Of a DNA stretch of 64,000 bases, positions 20,358 to 55,443 are shown one piece after another. The notes beneath the pieces are model-generated. The model had not been told where the DNA came from. It saw nothing but the letters and a program-made list of their open reading frames with translations, and did not search any database. Source of the DNA: an uncultured Spirochaetales bacterium. GTDB lineage: Bacteria > Spirochaetota > Spirochaetia > Sphaerochaetales > Sphaerochaetaceae. Every line of letters begins with the position of its first letter. The first letter of the stretch is position 1. Position numbers and translations under genes: made by a program. The DNA lies in NCBI GenBank assembly GCA_944392695.1, contig CALXXN010000011.1, forward strand, positions 1 through 64,000, given 5' to 3'.

Positions 20358-20729
20358 TTGGAAGTCTTATATGCAAAGAAGAAAATAGAGCGGATTTGTA
20401 AGAATCTGAATGAAGCTCAGAAGTATTTTGGAGGTGACAGGCTATTGGCCTTGAGCCTTCTTGCAAGGGTGAATGCTCTTGAAAGCGCAGTGAACTTGCA
20501 TGAGATCATCATACAAAAGAACTTCCACTTCCATAACCTCCATGACAAGGGAAGGAGCAAATTTGAAGGCTTTCATTCAGTTGATGTCAAAACAAGGAAA
20601 GAACCATGGCGTGTGATCCTGCAGGCGCTTGATGAGGCTGGTGAGCCCTATGTCAAGTGCAGTATCGATGAGATTGCAGCGCATGTGGTCAAGGTGAGGA
20701 TTACCGAGGTGAGCAAGCATTATGAGTAA
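20358..20729 (+). CDS. RelE/HigB-type toxin
   Basis: Small basic protein of 123 residues with the start MEVLYAKKKIERICKN, typical of the HigB-like plasmid-maintenance killer family, though longer by about 25 residues than most. The C-terminal half (PWRVILQALDEAGEP, VRITEVSKHYE) fits the RelE fold ending in a conserved HY. These toxins cut mRNA on the ribosome. The only usable start is TTG 20358, because a stop lies two codons upstream. It overlaps the antitoxin start by eight bases. Confidence 0.82.
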   Translation: MEVLYAKKKIERICKNLNEAQKYFGGDRLLALSLLARVNALESAVNLHEIIIQKNFHFHNLHDKGRSKFEGFHSVDVKTRKEPWRVILQALDEAGEPYVKCSIDEIAAHVVKVRITEVSKHYE

Positions 20730-21798
20730 TTACTTGGTTTACAATGACAAAGTCGCGTTTCATCCGGGATATTATGTACAGGAGCTGGTAGAGGAAAGTG
20801 GTTTGACCCAGGAGGATTTCGCCAAGCGGCTTGGTACGACTCCGAAAAACCTCAGCCGGTTGATCAATGGACAGCAGCGCTTGTCTCCGGAGATGGCTTT
20901 CCGATTGGCCCGCTTGGTAGGCACTGGTACAGAGTACTGGTTGAATCTTCAATCCAGGTATGATGAGCTTGTCATGGAATTCCAAGCAGACGAGGAGTTG
21001 CAGGAAGAAAAGCGTATCCTGGATTATATCGGGTACGGTTACTTACGTGACAATTTCAACCTGCCTGATTTGAGTCACAAGAAGGCGATGCAGGTGGAGG
21101 AGGCGAGGAAATTCCTCAAGGTGTCATCATTGACAGTGTTCGAAAACAAGGACATGGCTGTGAGTTTTCGGTCGGCATCGTCCAAGATGACAGCAAAGAA
21201 CATAGTCAATGCGAATGTCATGGTGCAGATCGCTGTCAACAAGGCCCTGTCCATTGACTCTCCGACTTTTGACATGGGGAAATTCCAATCTTGTGCTGAG
21301 TATGCTTTGACCCTTACATCAAGACATGAGGATTTCTATCCATTGTTGCGTGATGCTTTCAGGGATGCTGGTGTGGTTTTCGAAGTCTTACCCAATCTCC
21401 CAGGTTCGAAAACAAATGGCGCGACAAAAAAGATAGGGGACAGGATACTGCTCATGGTCAATGACCGTAGGATGTATTCTGATGTCTTCTGGTTCACCTT
21501 GTTCCATGAAATCGGACATATAATGAACAAGGACTATGGTATTTCCTTCGAAGGGGAGCAAGGACAGAAAGAAGAGTTGGCTGACAGGTATGCCCAGGAT
21601 ATGCTGATACCTTCGATTCCGTATTCTGTATTCATCCACAAAGGACTGTTTGGAGATGATGAGATAGTTGGCTTCGCATCATCAATCAAGCGCGATCCTG
21701 GGATTGTCCTTGGTCGTCTGCAACACGACAAGCTTGTTGATTATGATGATGTTGCTTTGAACAAGCTGAGGAAGAAGTATCGGATTGTTACTGGGTGA
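20722..21798 (+). CDS. HigA-like antitoxin fused to ImmA/IrrE protease domain
   Basis: 358 residues. Residues 10-80 form a HigA/XRE HTH (FHPGYYVQELVEESGLTQED, KNLSRLINGQQRLSPEMAFR, GTGTEYWLNLQSRYD). The C-terminal half is a COG2856/ImmA-IrrE zinc protease domain with the HExxH motif in FTLFHEIGHIMNKD and downstream acidic residues (EELADRYAQDML). The domain order gives an antitoxin that may itself be, or be regulated by, a protease. It overlaps the toxin gene, and an operator palindrome lies at 20314. The protease domain could act on the antitoxin part or on another repressor; the sequence does not tell which. Confidence 0.9.
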   Translation: MSNYLVYNDKVAFHPGYYVQELVEESGLTQEDFAKRLGTTPKNLSRLINGQQRLSPEMAFRLARLVGTGTEYWLNLQSRYDELVMEFQADEELQEEKRILDYIGYGYLRDNFNLPDLSHKKAMQVEEARKFLKVSSLTVFENKDMAVSFRSASSKMTAKNIVNANVMVQIAVNKALSIDSPTFDMGKFQSCAEYALTLTSRHEDFYPLLRDAFRDAGVVFEVLPNLPGSKTNGATKKIGDRILLMVNDRRMYSDVFWFTLFHEIGHIMNKDYGISFEGEQGQKEELADRYAQDMLIPSIPYSVFIHKGLFGDDEIVGFASSIKRDPGIVLGRLQHDKLVDYDDVALNKLRKKYRIVTG

Positions 21799-35445: not shown

Positions 35446-36600
35446 TGGAACCGCCTCCTGGAATACTCATCCAAGTCATACCAGCGCCGAGGCGAAAGCC
35501 ATTCGGCCTTCGATTTGAACAGCTTCATCGCACATACGCTGAAGCCTGCCTATCCATGGCTCGCGGATGCTCCTGCCCAGACGCTGCAGTGCGTGTCGGC
35601 AGACCTCACATCAGCCTTCAAGGCCTTCTTCCGCAAGGATGCGGCTTATCCCCGGTTCAAGACGAAGCACCGCTCGAAGAAGAGCTTCAGGATCCCGTAG
35701 AAGGGCAAGGTTGATGTTGAGGACAGCCGCATTTATGTACAAGGCATCGGCTGGGTTGAGGCGGTGATACACAGGAAGCCTGTAGGCAGGCTCAGGAACA
35801 TCACGGTGACTGTGGACCCATCAGGAAGCGCATATGCCTCATGCCTCTTCGATGACAGCCTGGAAGCTCCCGTCCATGAACTGTCGGAAAAGCCCAAGGT
35901 AATCGGCATCGACCTCAACCTTGAGCGCCTCGCGGTCTGCTCGGACGGGACTGAGCATGGTAATCCACATGCTCTGAAGCAGCATGAGAAGAAGCTGAAG
36001 CACAAGCAGAAGCTCCTGTCAAAGAAGTGCAAGGGTTCGAAGAACTGGAAGAAACTGAAGACTGAGATAGCGGTGCTCCATGAGAAGATCGCCGACATCA
36101 GGAAGGACAGCATACACAAGATGACGAAGAGGATCGTCTGCGACAGCCAAGCAGATGTCATAGTCATCGAGGATCTTAACGTGTCCGGAATGATGAGGAA
36201 CCATAAGCTCTCAAAGCACGTGCAGGACGCGTTGTTCTATGAGATCAGGAGGCAGATCGAGTACAAGTGCCTCTGGTACGGGAAGACGCTGGTCATGGCA
36301 GACAGGTTCTTCGCATCGTCGAGGACATGTAGCAACTGTGGCTGGCACAACGACGGGCTCACGCTTGGTGACAGACAGTGGGAGTGCCCCGTGTGCCATA
36401 CCCGGCATGATCGTGACCGCAATGCGGACATGAATCTTGCATCATTTGGCCTGAAGGCCCTAGCCGGGGACGCCGGCGAAGCAAAGCCTCTGGAGATGCC
36501 CTCTGTGGACGACCGTGCGGCGACGCACCTGAGAAGCATGGCATCCGTGAAGGAGGAAAAGGACCATGGATACTCCATGGAAGCCTCTAGGTTTGCCTAG
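35431..36600 (+). pseudogene. tnpB: TnpB (IS200/IS605 OrfB), truncated and with an in-frame stop
   Basis: RNA-guided nuclease of the IS605 group, remnant. Homology begins at CRFTWNRLLEYSSKSYQ (about 35434), so roughly the first 30 residues are missing. A TAG at 35698 interrupts the frame after KKSFRIP; the same frame resumes immediately. The RuvC residues are still readable: Asp in IGIDLNLERLAVCSDG, Glu in VIVIEDLNVSGM, Asp in HDRDRNADMNLASFG; the zinc finger is CSNCG and CPVC. Intact catalytic residues with one nonsense codon suggest recent inactivation. No tnpA was found. Confidence 0.88.
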
Positions 36601-51574: not shown

Positions 51575-51598
51575 ACAGGGTGCCGAAGGGCACCCTGT
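51575..51598. terminator. Terminator between convergent genes
   Basis: ACAGGGTGCC-GAAG-GGCACCCTGT, a perfect ten-bp stem followed by TCTTGTC. It can also end the helicase transcript from the other side. Confidence 0.85.
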
Positions 51599-51619: not shown

Positions 51620-54600
51620 TCAGGAGGAAAGGCCTCCGGACAGGGCTTCGAGGATCCTGCGGACGTCTGGCTCGGACCTGGCTTCGCTCAGTTTGGATAT
51701 GAGATATGAAGTGAATGCCGGCTCGTCTTTTTCAAGCCCGGCTTGTTCCGCACGGTTGAAACGTTTTTCAGCGTAGTTCCAGCCGAGGCGGTATGTCTTC
51801 CTGCCATCCAAGGTGAGTTTGAAGTCAATCCAATCTCCTTTCAGCTTGTATTCGGAAGCTGCCCAGCCGGATCCTGCCTTGCCATATTGACTGGTGTCAT
51901 CTTTTCCAAGACCTTCCAGGATCCGACGGACATCATCCTCTAATCCCGCCTTGCCCAGTTTGGCTACAAGCCACGATGCGAATGAAGGTTCTTTTTCTTC
52001 CAAAGCGGCCTGGTCCTTCCGATTGAACCGCTTTTCAACGCAGTTCCAACCAAGACGATAGCTGTCATGCCCGTTTTTGGTGACGACGAAGTTCAACCAG
52101 TCCCCATTGGCCTTGAATCCAGAAGCTTTCCATCCTGGCTTCATGACACCAAGCTGTTTGATCCCTTCAACATCAAGACTTTCCAGGTATTTCCTGATTT
52201 CCTCAGTGCGCCCGATGTCATTGAGTTGTTTGAAACCCTTGTCGTCAAAAGTCCCTCTTCCTGGCATGAAGGAGAATTTGGCATGAGCTCCGCCATCATC
52301 ATAGACAAGATCCAGATATCCCCCGGCACTTGATTCGCCGATATATTTCAAGCGGCCAGGCAGTGGGCTGTTTGTTTTCACATCATGGGCCCCTGTGTTT
52401 GAGGATCCGGCTGTTCCCGCCTTGATCAGATTGGAGGCTTCGGCTTCCAGCCGCTGTGTGACGATAGCGGCGAGGGATGGGTCTATCGCATTCAACCTCT
52501 CCTGTCCTGTCTTTGAGATGCATGCCTTGTCCATATCCCAGACGAATCGGATCGTGGTGCCATCGATGGGGATTTCGAATGTTGGCTTGCCATTGAACTC
52601 GCCCACGTAGGCAAGGCTGTGTCCGCTACTTGCGGATCGTCCCTCCTTGGAAGAGACAGGCTTGCCCGCTTCTTCATTGAAGGCCATGAGTTTCTTCTGG
52701 ACGGCAGCGACACAGCCAATGTTGCGCCACAATTCCTGGTCTCCAATGACAGCGACCTTGTACTTCGCTCTTGAGATGGCGACGTTCATCATGTTTGGCT
52801 TTTCTCCAACCCAGTCAGCTGAGCCTTTCGACTTGTTGTCACATCCAAGGACGATGATCACCTCATCTGCCTGCTTGCCTTGGAATGTGTGCACTGTGCC
52901 AATCATGTCGTGCCTGAGTCCGAACCGGTCTGCTTCGTCGTGAAGGGCTTTCACAACAGAAGTGAAGGGGGAGATGATGAAGAGGCGTGCCTCTCCTGGA
53001 GCATTTCCAGACAACTTGTCCTTGTTCTTGCGTAGCATGGCTTTCACGCATTCAATCTGTGCAGGTACATTCCTGCTGTCTTTCTTGTCCTCCTTGCCTT
53101 GCACATCAATCCAGCAAGATGATTCCAAGATGAAGTCCTTCCTCCCTGGTTCCCTGGTCTTGTTGATCATCGTGTTCTGATAGGCAATGGCATTGGAGAT
53201 GCTGAACATCGGTTCCAGGCATCGTCTGTGTATGATAAGAGGACAGCCAACATCCAGTTCCTTGTCCTTGTACTTCCTCTTTCCAATATACTTTGACATC
53301 CTATCGGCAGCGGTTTGGACGGATTCCCTAGGTCTGCGAGGGTCATCTTGGCTTATTCCGTGGCGCAGTCGGAGGAATTCATCGAGTCCCGCTGGTAGTG
53401 TCTCGATGGGTTCGATCTGGAAAGGATCGCCAACAACCACGGCCATCTTCGCTTTCTCAAGACATTCCAGTGCGTAATAGGGTTGTGCCTGTCCAGCCTC
53501 ATCTATGATCAGGTAGCCAATTGAATCTGGTGGAAGCTTGTCCAGCAACCTGTGCGCCGAGGCGAAAGTCGTCGAGACAACTGGTACGGCGAGGAAGAAA
53601 GTGTTGAGCAAGTGGCAATAGGAAGCAGCATCACGTTTCTTGCCATATTGGAGCTGCTCATAAAAGAGCATCAGGTTTGATTTGACTGCATCGCTGTTGC
53701 ACAAGAAGGCTTTATGAATCTTCAAGGCTTTCCAGAAGAGTTTCTCCCGTAAACGGTTGAAGTCCTTGTAGTCAGGATCCTCAAGCTTGTAGTCGAATCC
53801 ATTCTGGGCTTCCTCCCATCTTTCAATCAAAGCATCATCAGAAGGCTTCCTGTCTCTCTTGAGCAGGCCTTTGATGTTAATCGCCTTTCTTGTTTCAGCA
53901 GCATTTGCATAGAAGGTGTCAAGTCTTCCTTTGTACTTGCTTGCAAGTCCTGCCCTGGCGGCTTCAAGTTCTGCCTTCGCCTTGGCGAACTCATTCCTTG
54001 CACTTTTGAAATCAATCTCCTCGTGTTCCAAAGAGTATCCAAGGGATTTGTAGTCATCATCATCGACAAGTCCATTCAGGGCTTCAATTGCAGCCGCTAT
54101 GTTGTCGGACTTGCCCAAAGGCACGGAAAGCAAGGCCCAGCAGCCTGCATCTCCTTCTTCCTGGTGCCTGCCACCTTTCACCACTGCACATGCAGTCTCA
54201 CTGAAATAATCAACTTCAGAAGGCCCTTGTTCATACAAGCCTGTTGGAGCATGTCCATCGACAAAGAGGGGGAGTTCCTTGGATATGTTCTCAACGGCAG
54301 CGTTGTTTGATGATGCGACCAGGATCCCATAGCCAGTGATCCTGCTGTCAGGGATGTAATAGCTTGTCCCAGTCCTGCTTGATTTCTTTTTTGTGAAAGC
54401 CTTGTCAGGCGCTGTACATAGGGAGCAGATCGCGTCAGCACGTTTGACGATGTTCGCCGCGATCACTTCTTTCAACAGTGTCGTCTTCCCTGTTCCTGGA
54501 GGGCCATTGACAGCGACAACATCCTCAGCCTCCTGGGTTATTATGTTGATGGCTGTCTGTTGCATGAGGGAGGGCATGTATTTTGATGGCCAACGGCCAA

Positions 54601-55336
54601 GTGTCATGTTCTGGAATGCATTGACTGACTGCAATGCAGTGGCATCGGAGTCGATTTCCACTGTGTCTTTCGCAGCGTATTCCTGATTTGTGGCCGCTAT
54701 GAAGGCTTCCACTTTGGGTGAGGGCGTTTCAGCCGCCATCGCTTCAAGGCTTTCTTTGTAGAACGATGCCCAGGGACGCTTGAGTTTCATGAGGGAGGCA
54801 GCAGTCAAGCCACTCCCGGCATCCTTGCCACTGCTCCACACGATCTTGTCATACGTCAGCTTGAGTTGCTTTTCCAGATGATCCTGGATCCTGTCCAGAT
54901 GGTGGAAGACTTCGTCCAAGGTGACGCAGTGATCCTCGTTTCCCTCATCCTCTATGCCGAATACGGCTTTCCGGAGTTCCGCATCTGTTTCTTTCTTGTT
55001 CTCGATTGTGAGTTGCGCGCCACTGTCTTGTATCAACATCTCGAAGGCCCAGAATGCGGGTGAGAAGGAGAATCCGTCCCTGAGGTTGACGTTGCCATCT
55101 TCGTCGGCGCTTACGGAAATCACGGCACATGAACAGCTGTCGAAGGTGTTGTCCATATCGTGGCCGAGCGCACCCAGCAGTGATTGGACGTCTATATGGC
55201 CCAGCAGGTATGTCCCTTCTTTTTCCTTATAGGTTTTTGTCTTGGGGTCTCTCTTTGCGAGGTCCTTGTATGTGAAAAGACCTTGAGAGAACAGCTCTAC
55301 GTCTTGAGCATATGCGATATAGTCTTTGGTTTTCAT
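51620..55336 (-). CDS. Large UPF1-like superfamily 1 helicase with tandem C-terminal repeats
   Basis: About 1238 residues. Walker A (AVNGPPGTGKTTLLKEVI) is near residue 275; motif II is LIIDEAGQAQPYYALECLE near 612; motif III VVVGDPFQIEP near 638; motif V GTVHTFQGKQADEVIIVLG near 818; motif VI NVAISRAKYKVAVIGD near 855. A coiled-coil insertion lies about residues 445-500. The last 180 residues are two copies of one domain: GWKASGFKANGDWLNF with YRLGWNCVEKRFNRKDQ, and GWAASEYKLKGDWIDF with YRLGWNYAEKRFNRAEQ. The N-terminal 250 residues match nothing I recognise, and no nuclease motif is evident. Stand-alone gene; ATG 55336 after GAGAGG. Confidence 0.9.
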   Translation of the reverse strand: MKTKDYIAYAQDVELFSQGLFTYKDLAKRDPKTKTYKEKEGTYLLGHIDVQSLLGALGHDMDNTFDSCSCAVISVSADEDGNVNLRDGFSFSPAFWAFEMLIQDSGAQLTIENKKETDAELRKAVFGIEDEGNEDHCVTLDEVFHHLDRIQDHLEKQLKLTYDKIVWSSGKDAGSGLTAASLMKLKRPWASFYKESLEAMAAETPSPKVEAFIAATNQEYAAKDTVEIDSDATALQSVNAFQNMTLGRWPSKYMPSLMQQTAINIITQEAEDVVAVNGPPGTGKTTLLKEVIAANIVKRADAICSLCTAPDKAFTKKKSSRTGTSYYIPDSRITGYGILVASSNNAAVENISKELPLFVDGHAPTGLYEQGPSEVDYFSETACAVVKGGRHQEEGDAGCWALLSVPLGKSDNIAAAIEALNGLVDDDDYKSLGYSLEHEEIDFKSARNEFAKAKAELEAARAGLASKYKGRLDTFYANAAETRKAINIKGLLKRDRKPSDDALIERWEEAQNGFDYKLEDPDYKDFNRLREKLFWKALKIHKAFLCNSDAVKSNLMLFYEQLQYGKKRDAASYCHLLNTFFLAVPVVSTTFASAHRLLDKLPPDSIGYLIIDEAGQAQPYYALECLEKAKMAVVVGDPFQIEPIETLPAGLDEFLRLRHGISQDDPRRPRESVQTAADRMSKYIGKRKYKDKELDVGCPLIIHRRCLEPMFSISNAIAYQNTMINKTREPGRKDFILESSCWIDVQGKEDKKDSRNVPAQIECVKAMLRKNKDKLSGNAPGEARLFIISPFTSVVKALHDEADRFGLRHDMIGTVHTFQGKQADEVIIVLGCDNKSKGSADWVGEKPNMMNVAISRAKYKVAVIGDQELWRNIGCVAAVQKKLMAFNEEAGKPVSSKEGRSASSGHSLAYVGEFNGKPTFEIPIDGTTIRFVWDMDKACISKTGQERLNAIDPSLAAIVTQRLEAEASNLIKAGTAGSSNTGAHDVKTNSPLPGRLKYIGESSAGGYLDLVYDDGGAHAKFSFMPGRGTFDDKGFKQLNDIGRTEEIRKYLESLDVEGIKQLGVMKPGWKASGFKANGDWLNFVVTKNGHDSYRLGWNCVEKRFNRKDQAALEEKEPSFASWLVAKLGKAGLEDDVRRILEGLGKDDTSQYGKAGSGWAASEYKLKGDWIDFKLTLDGRKTYRLGWNYAEKRFNRAEQAGLEKDEPAFTSYLISKLSEARSEPDVRRILEALSGGLSS

Positions 55337-55396
55337 CCTACCTCTCCACACTATATTGCGATACTCTCATTGGGATGACGCTGTGTCAATCAAAAC

Positions 55397-55423
55397 AGCC
55401 CCTATCGATGTACGACAGGGGCT
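55397..55423 (-). terminator. Terminator of the amino-acid ABC operon
   Basis: AGCCCCT ... AGGGGCT with a 13-base loop; read on the minus strand it ends in GTTTTGATTG. It separates the transporter operon from the helicase gene. A TTGACA follows directly on the minus strand and could be the helicase -35 box. Confidence 0.7.
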
Positions 55424-55443
55424 GATGCTGCTTTTAGCATGTG

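Follow-up and report, generated by a model that had tools for sequence, protein, structure and literature searches.

A stand-alone UPF1-like helicase with a probable array of four small C-terminal units in an uncultured Spirochaetales bacterium

The DNA analysed here (the window) is a 64,000-nt stretch of contig CALXXN010000011.1 from an uncultured Spirochaetales bacterium (assembly GCA_944392695.1). On its minus strand, positions 51620-55336 hold a gene for a helicase of 1238 aa. A first-pass annotation had called this open reading frame and described it as a self-contained gene, and both statements agree with our analysis. Translation is from an ATG with a Shine–Dalgarno-like GGAGAGGTAGG just upstream, a good ribosome-binding site; a GTG further upstream in the same frame (55351) could also be the start but is less probable. 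Two intrinsic terminator-like hairpins on the minus strand flank the gene, one separating the helicase from the ABC operon upstream of it (55396-55424; 12-bp stem, 8 GC pairs) and one directly past its stop codon (51575-51598; 10-bp stem, 7 GC pairs). The terminator scan returned 8 such sites against 4.1 expected by shuffling, and these two have the longest stems. Because of the hairpins on both sides and a convergent downstream neighbour, the helicase gene is most likely a stand-alone, monocistronic transcription unit lying between two strong terminators. Membership of the upstream ABC operon is unlikely, since the terminator at 55396-55424 intervenes. The flanking genes encode an NTP transferase, ABC and sugar/amino-acid transporters, a MATE protein and an aspartokinase.

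Pfam AAA_11 and AAA_12 scored above cut-off on the protein, and the superfamily 1 (SF1) motifs noted in the first-pass annotation are all intact and in order: GPPGTGKT (Walker A) at residue 278, DEAGQ (motif II) at 612, GDPFQIEP (motif III) at 636, GTVHTFQGK (motif V) at 813 and NVAISRAK (motif VI) at 851, the arrangement of a UPF1-like SF1 helicase. On the DNA (minus strand), Pfam, the structural model and the motifs place the first part of RecA domain 1A, with Walker A at residues 278-285, at 54242-54604, its second part (DEAGQ and GDPFQIEP) at 53387-53611 and RecA 2A (GTVHTFQGK and NVAISRAK) at 52682-53386. The two parts of 1A are separated by a long helical, 1C-like insertion (residues about 366-575; 53612-54241), in which the modelled helices 432-564 are a 1C-type insertion. 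The AlphaFold model covered residues 1-1150 with an alignment of 40 sequences (pLDDT 77, pTM 0.74). It matched the IGHMBP2-RNA complex with a VIA Z of 19.2 (449 residues, rmsd 3.4), UPF1 with 18.6 and Sen1/SETX with 16-18, and Foldseek matched it to SETX bound to ssRNA (E 1e-17) and also to UPF1, IGHMBP2 and Sen1. The protein therefore shares with UPF1, IGHMBP2 and SETX all motifs and, in the model, the anatomy of stalk, 1B, 1A, 1C and 2A (Z 16-19), but structural-alignment identity is only about 16-18% and the query adds a C-terminal array. The TIGR00376 model of the IGHMBP2 family gave 56.1 bits against a cut-off of 348.9.

Residues 1-240 (54617-55336, minus strand) had been regarded as an N-terminal domain of unknown kind, which our structural comparison revises. 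In UPF1-like proteins and nsp13, a stalk and a 1B barrel precede 1A. Since VIA aligned the model from its residue 1 with IGHMBP2, UPF1, SETX and nsp13 but from residue 246 with UvrD, this region is most likely a UPF1-like stalk helix and 1B barrel, an assignment from the start points of the alignments that is strong but provisional. Residues conserved across the family in this part are G81, W96 and S191-F192. As had been noted, no nuclease domain is recognisable in the protein by Pfam, PADLOC, NCBIfam or PHROGs, and a search of it for the HxKx4D phospholipase D (PLD) motif found none.

Past the helicase lies a tail that had been described as two tandem repeats. The pair itself is real: unit 3 (residues about 1064-1146; 51899-52147, minus strand), with the pattern GW..GDW..YRLGWN..EKRFNR and seen in the sequence, by HMM and in the model, and unit 4 (residues about 1150-1238; 51623-51889, minus strand) are 58% identical over 76 residues and 64% identical in nucleotides, beginning at residues 1068 and 1157 with a period of 89 aa. 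Third codon positions are just 43% identical between the two and, for that reason, we regard the duplication as old on sequence grounds. The count, however, is more likely four. In the AlphaFold model of residues 1-1150, a beta-beta-beta-alpha order recurs at 909-973, 995-1061 and 1069-1142, with moderate confidence in unit 1 and lower confidence in units 2 and 3; the homologues behind this model were not selected for carrying such a tail. A separate AlphaFold run on unit 4, with an alignment consisting of its three paralogous units, gave a confident beta3-alpha3 fold (core pLDDT about 90; means of 90-92 in blocks of residues 11-80). Unit 1 (residues about 905-975; 52412-52624, minus strand) is degenerate and modelled as beta3-alpha2 at a pLDDT of about 62-82. 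An HMM of units 3 and 4 and two units of a relative (P0002, see below), from which units 1 and 2 were left out, detected it at 11.5 bits, where the best of 1000 shuffles reached 9.1. Unit 2 (residues about 993-1063; 52148-52360, minus strand), likewise degenerate, was missed by this HMM and comes from the AlphaFold model only, as beta3-alpha3 at moderate-to-low confidence. By these models, units 3 and 4 appear well supported and unit 1 fairly so, and the tail as a whole probably comprises four beta3-alpha3 units. No nuclease remnant was seen in residues 880-1060, a stretch that folds as units 1 and 2.

The array matched little in the searches that we made. Pfam (to E 10) and PADLOC gave no match, tblastn to E 10 against plasmids and phages did not find it, and a profile search of the PDB with a unit yielded no match (best E 0.65). 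A PDB fold search reached E 0.11 at best and a VIA Z of at most 4.4, which does not by itself prove a new fold. PUR-repeat and other single-strand-binding folds, candidates for a beta-beta-beta-alpha unit, supplied no chain among the structural matches but may still fit the unit. Units 3 and 4 are only weakly basic (15 K+R versus 12-13 D+E) and acidic residues slightly prevail in units 1 and 2, so that charge, as read from the sequence, gives no pointer to nucleic-acid binding. Residues conserved across the units (W, GDW, GWN and KR) make up no known catalytic motif. Apparently, the beta3-alpha3 unit is a small domain that is so far unclassified.

We searched for the unit in 139 genomes of the family, 393 of the phylum and 395 of the class (overlapping samples). 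Apart from matches of the seven input units to themselves, which arise by construction, convincing matches were confined to the query's own genome and one other (G063), in both cases fused to the same type of helicase; a weak HMM match in G409 (E 0.006) was not accepted as real. The G063 protein, P0002, is 45% identical to the query over residues 1-876 and carries about three units. In a tree made by a quick method and containing some long branches, the two form a clade (support 100) that joins a Firmicutes clade. The helicase itself belongs to an unnamed bacterial stand-alone UPF1-like family, present at E < 1e-40 in 6 of 393 phylum genomes and in at least 80 loci of Bacteroidota, Pseudomonadota, Bacillota, Actinomycetota and others. 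Its members share the N-terminal region and helicase of the query, but in nearly all of the ~80 loci the protein stops within about 40 aa past the helicase, and none of the members fetched has a beta3-alpha3 array. Five Firmicutes proteins (L032, L054, L056, L063 and L090) instead have tails of 250-370 aa that share the motif R-N-x-C-x-H and are HEPN RNase-like in this motif only; the two scanned, from L054 and L032, had no Pfam match. Such tails may be a hitherto undescribed effector joined to a UPF1-like helicase. Among the other tails in the family, one has Sel1-like repeats and one is zinc-ribbon-like.

Two further observations concern related helicases in and near the genus. The query genome has a second, distant UPF1-like helicase (G000:C5:68475-71915; a 777-aa open frame) with a different C-terminal tail. 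Five helicases of the genus and family (L006, L009, L011, L014 and L020) have, by eye, a C-terminal DUF559/PD-(D/E)xK-like stretch, unlike the query.

GC3 of the helicase gene is 0.578, compared with 0.67-0.77 for nine neighbours, and a close homologue is absent from 15 congeners. The flanking NTP-transferase gene, on the other hand, is present in 14 of the 16 genus genomes (the query's own included), and in one congener (G015) the NTP-transferase and ABC ATPase flanks are kept and enclose other content. Because of the low GC3, the absence from congeners and the different content between the G015 flanks, the helicase gene is probably an accessory, horizontally acquired gene, as far as sequence comparison can tell.

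The query locus itself has ordinary neighbours, and neither here nor in G063 was a defence neighbour seen. We surveyed the sister clade for genes within about 5 kb (15 loci, 116 ORFs). Near the helicase lay a DNA methylase (MTase_II; L036), a type I R gene (L049), HamB of Hachiman (L064; E=0), a DpdE/ZorD-like gene (L090), an OLD/AriA-like gene (L045) and a GajB-like UvrD helicase that may be generic (L032). In a Listeria locus (L048), type I R and Mrr genes stand by the helicase, the Mrr ORF ending 60 nt ahead of the helicase ORF. The candidate families HEC-06 and PDC-M39 had two matches each among these neighbours, without assignment to a locus. Beyond this survey, a Priestia plasmid relative adjoins CBASS genes (SAVED, ThiF and nucleotidyltransferase) and a Niallia plasmid relative adjoins a TIR gene. 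A link with defence, which had been proposed earlier, is thus supported by relatives' neighbours; not every homologue lies in an operon for core RNA functions or recombination, and the repeat matched no housekeeping domain. We consider the link plausible as an association of relatives rather than a statistical one.

UPF1-like helicases occur in many bacterial defence loci, where the usual reading is 'helicase + nuclease'. The query is ordinary in being another such helicase from a defence-associated family and unusual in its four-unit tail. It is very probably a helicase or translocase; a role in defence, judged from the neighbours of relatives, seems somewhat more probable than its opposite, and we lean to a similar degree towards the array being a binding part. 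Most probably the protein would act as a motor on ssRNA or ssDNA, with its tail for recognition or docking. The combined reading that we prefer, at a probability of roughly 0.5, is an acquired single-gene UPF1-like helicase of an often defence-adjacent family. The motor would move along ssRNA or ssDNA at the expense of ATP, with a direction of 5′ to 3′ by analogy with UPF1 and IGHMBP2. The array would take the place of the effector in relatives (HEPN-like tails, or PLD in Mokosh II) and be a platform for recognising or docking on nucleic acid of foreign origin, a protein of a phage or a nuclease of the host, and the motor would strip or expose phage RNA or DNA that other enzymes then destroy. 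A bolder version, which we offer tentatively and think unlikely in full, is that the array is a new domain family giving the motor specificity for foreign nucleic acid or a phage protein, making a one-gene defence in which a recognition array replaces the nuclease.

A UPF1-like core is also common to enzymes of RNA surveillance and repair, and the query could be a housekeeping helicase acting on RNA or DNA of the host or a mobile element. Such an enzyme would serve in RNA surveillance, in the transfer of plasmids or in repair, would travel horizontally by chance and would bind a cellular partner by its tail. Its neighbours are metabolic, as is the context of a Parabacteroides relative. Several hundred Klebsiella plasmid records hold a similar gene, annotated merely as ATP-binding protein or DEAD/DEAH helicase, and in the one inspected (p15WZ-82_Vir; L162, 9047-12388) it lies inside the conjugation (tra) region. 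The settings of the Parabacteroides and Klebsiella relatives would equally suit roles in plasmid maintenance or in RNA. The very patchy distribution in the phylum, the absence from congeners and the defence-rich neighbourhoods of the sister clade argue against such a role, which we judge rather unlikely.

Among known defence systems, the closest by PADLOC is Mokosh type II, whose MkoC model was the top match (E 7e-76); both are single large genes with a COG1112 UPF1-like helicase. Mokosh II is defined by a helicase with a C-terminal PLD nuclease (PMC11672841), whereas the query has beta3-alpha3 units in that place, and we rejected membership because the tail has no Pfam match and the protein no HxKx4D motif. 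The E-value is no proof of membership either, since the MkoC match is confined to the helicase part and the model also matches further UPF1-like helicases from the same genus and family (E 1e-36 to 1e-49), nuclease-bearing ones included. The array might nevertheless have replaced the PLD domain of a Mokosh II-type nuclease-helicase and be an enzyme in its own right that went unrecognised, such as a new nuclease. The variable tails of relatives, some HEPN-like, would suit this idea, but the MkoC match is non-specific, the conserved residues of the unit match no known catalytic motif and the majority of relatives have no tail at all, which together make it improbable. A reading of the array as a module akin to immunity or phage proteins, and of the protein as a component of an anti-defence or toxin–antitoxin system, is very improbable: the unit's likeness to toxin-immunity complexes (VIA Z 4.4) and to a pair of small BFVD phage proteins (TM about 0.5 and E 0.02-0.03 in spite of a probability of 1.00, a lead only) is weak and within the range of chance (Z < 5, E > 0.01), and no toxin partner adjoins the gene.

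Other named systems fit less well. According to the part of the CoCoNuT report available to us, CnuH is a UPF1-like helicase that has an OB/stalk and, following Walker A, a large insertion of helices; it belongs to predicted RNA-targeting restriction systems and comes with McrBC (CnuBC) and, as a rule, a CnuE effector as partner (PMC11090510). The query resembles CnuH in its core, OB/stalk and helical insertion, but its locus has neither McrB/McrC (CnuBC) nor CnuE, and that part of the report describes no such array for CnuH. We rejected membership of CoCoNuT type II/III, the neighbours being NTP transferase, ABC transporter and MATE genes and the helicase gene monocistronic. The curated cut-offs of Hhe, ProA and PLuB, defence proteins that contain helicases, lie far above the scores of the query (20.9 versus 2000, 18.3 versus 1500 and 33.3 versus 999 bits).

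A large, mostly tail-less family with optional, swapped tails (HEPN-like, array, PLD) suggests that the motor may act alone or with host enzymes, and the swapped tails are a natural set for testing what sets the targets of UPF1-like motors.

Forty-nine other genes of the window gave generic matches only (AAA proteins, TnpB and a HigBA-like pair), none of them adjoining the helicase. The HigBA-like toxin–antitoxin pair lies at 20358-21798; its second gene, which encodes an HTH together with a part resembling ImmA peptidases, is probably what the PADLOC PD-Lambda-2_B model matched. A TnpB-like protein at 35764-36600, possibly partial but with its zinc-finger motif present, is the likely source of the PADLOC Cas12f matches.
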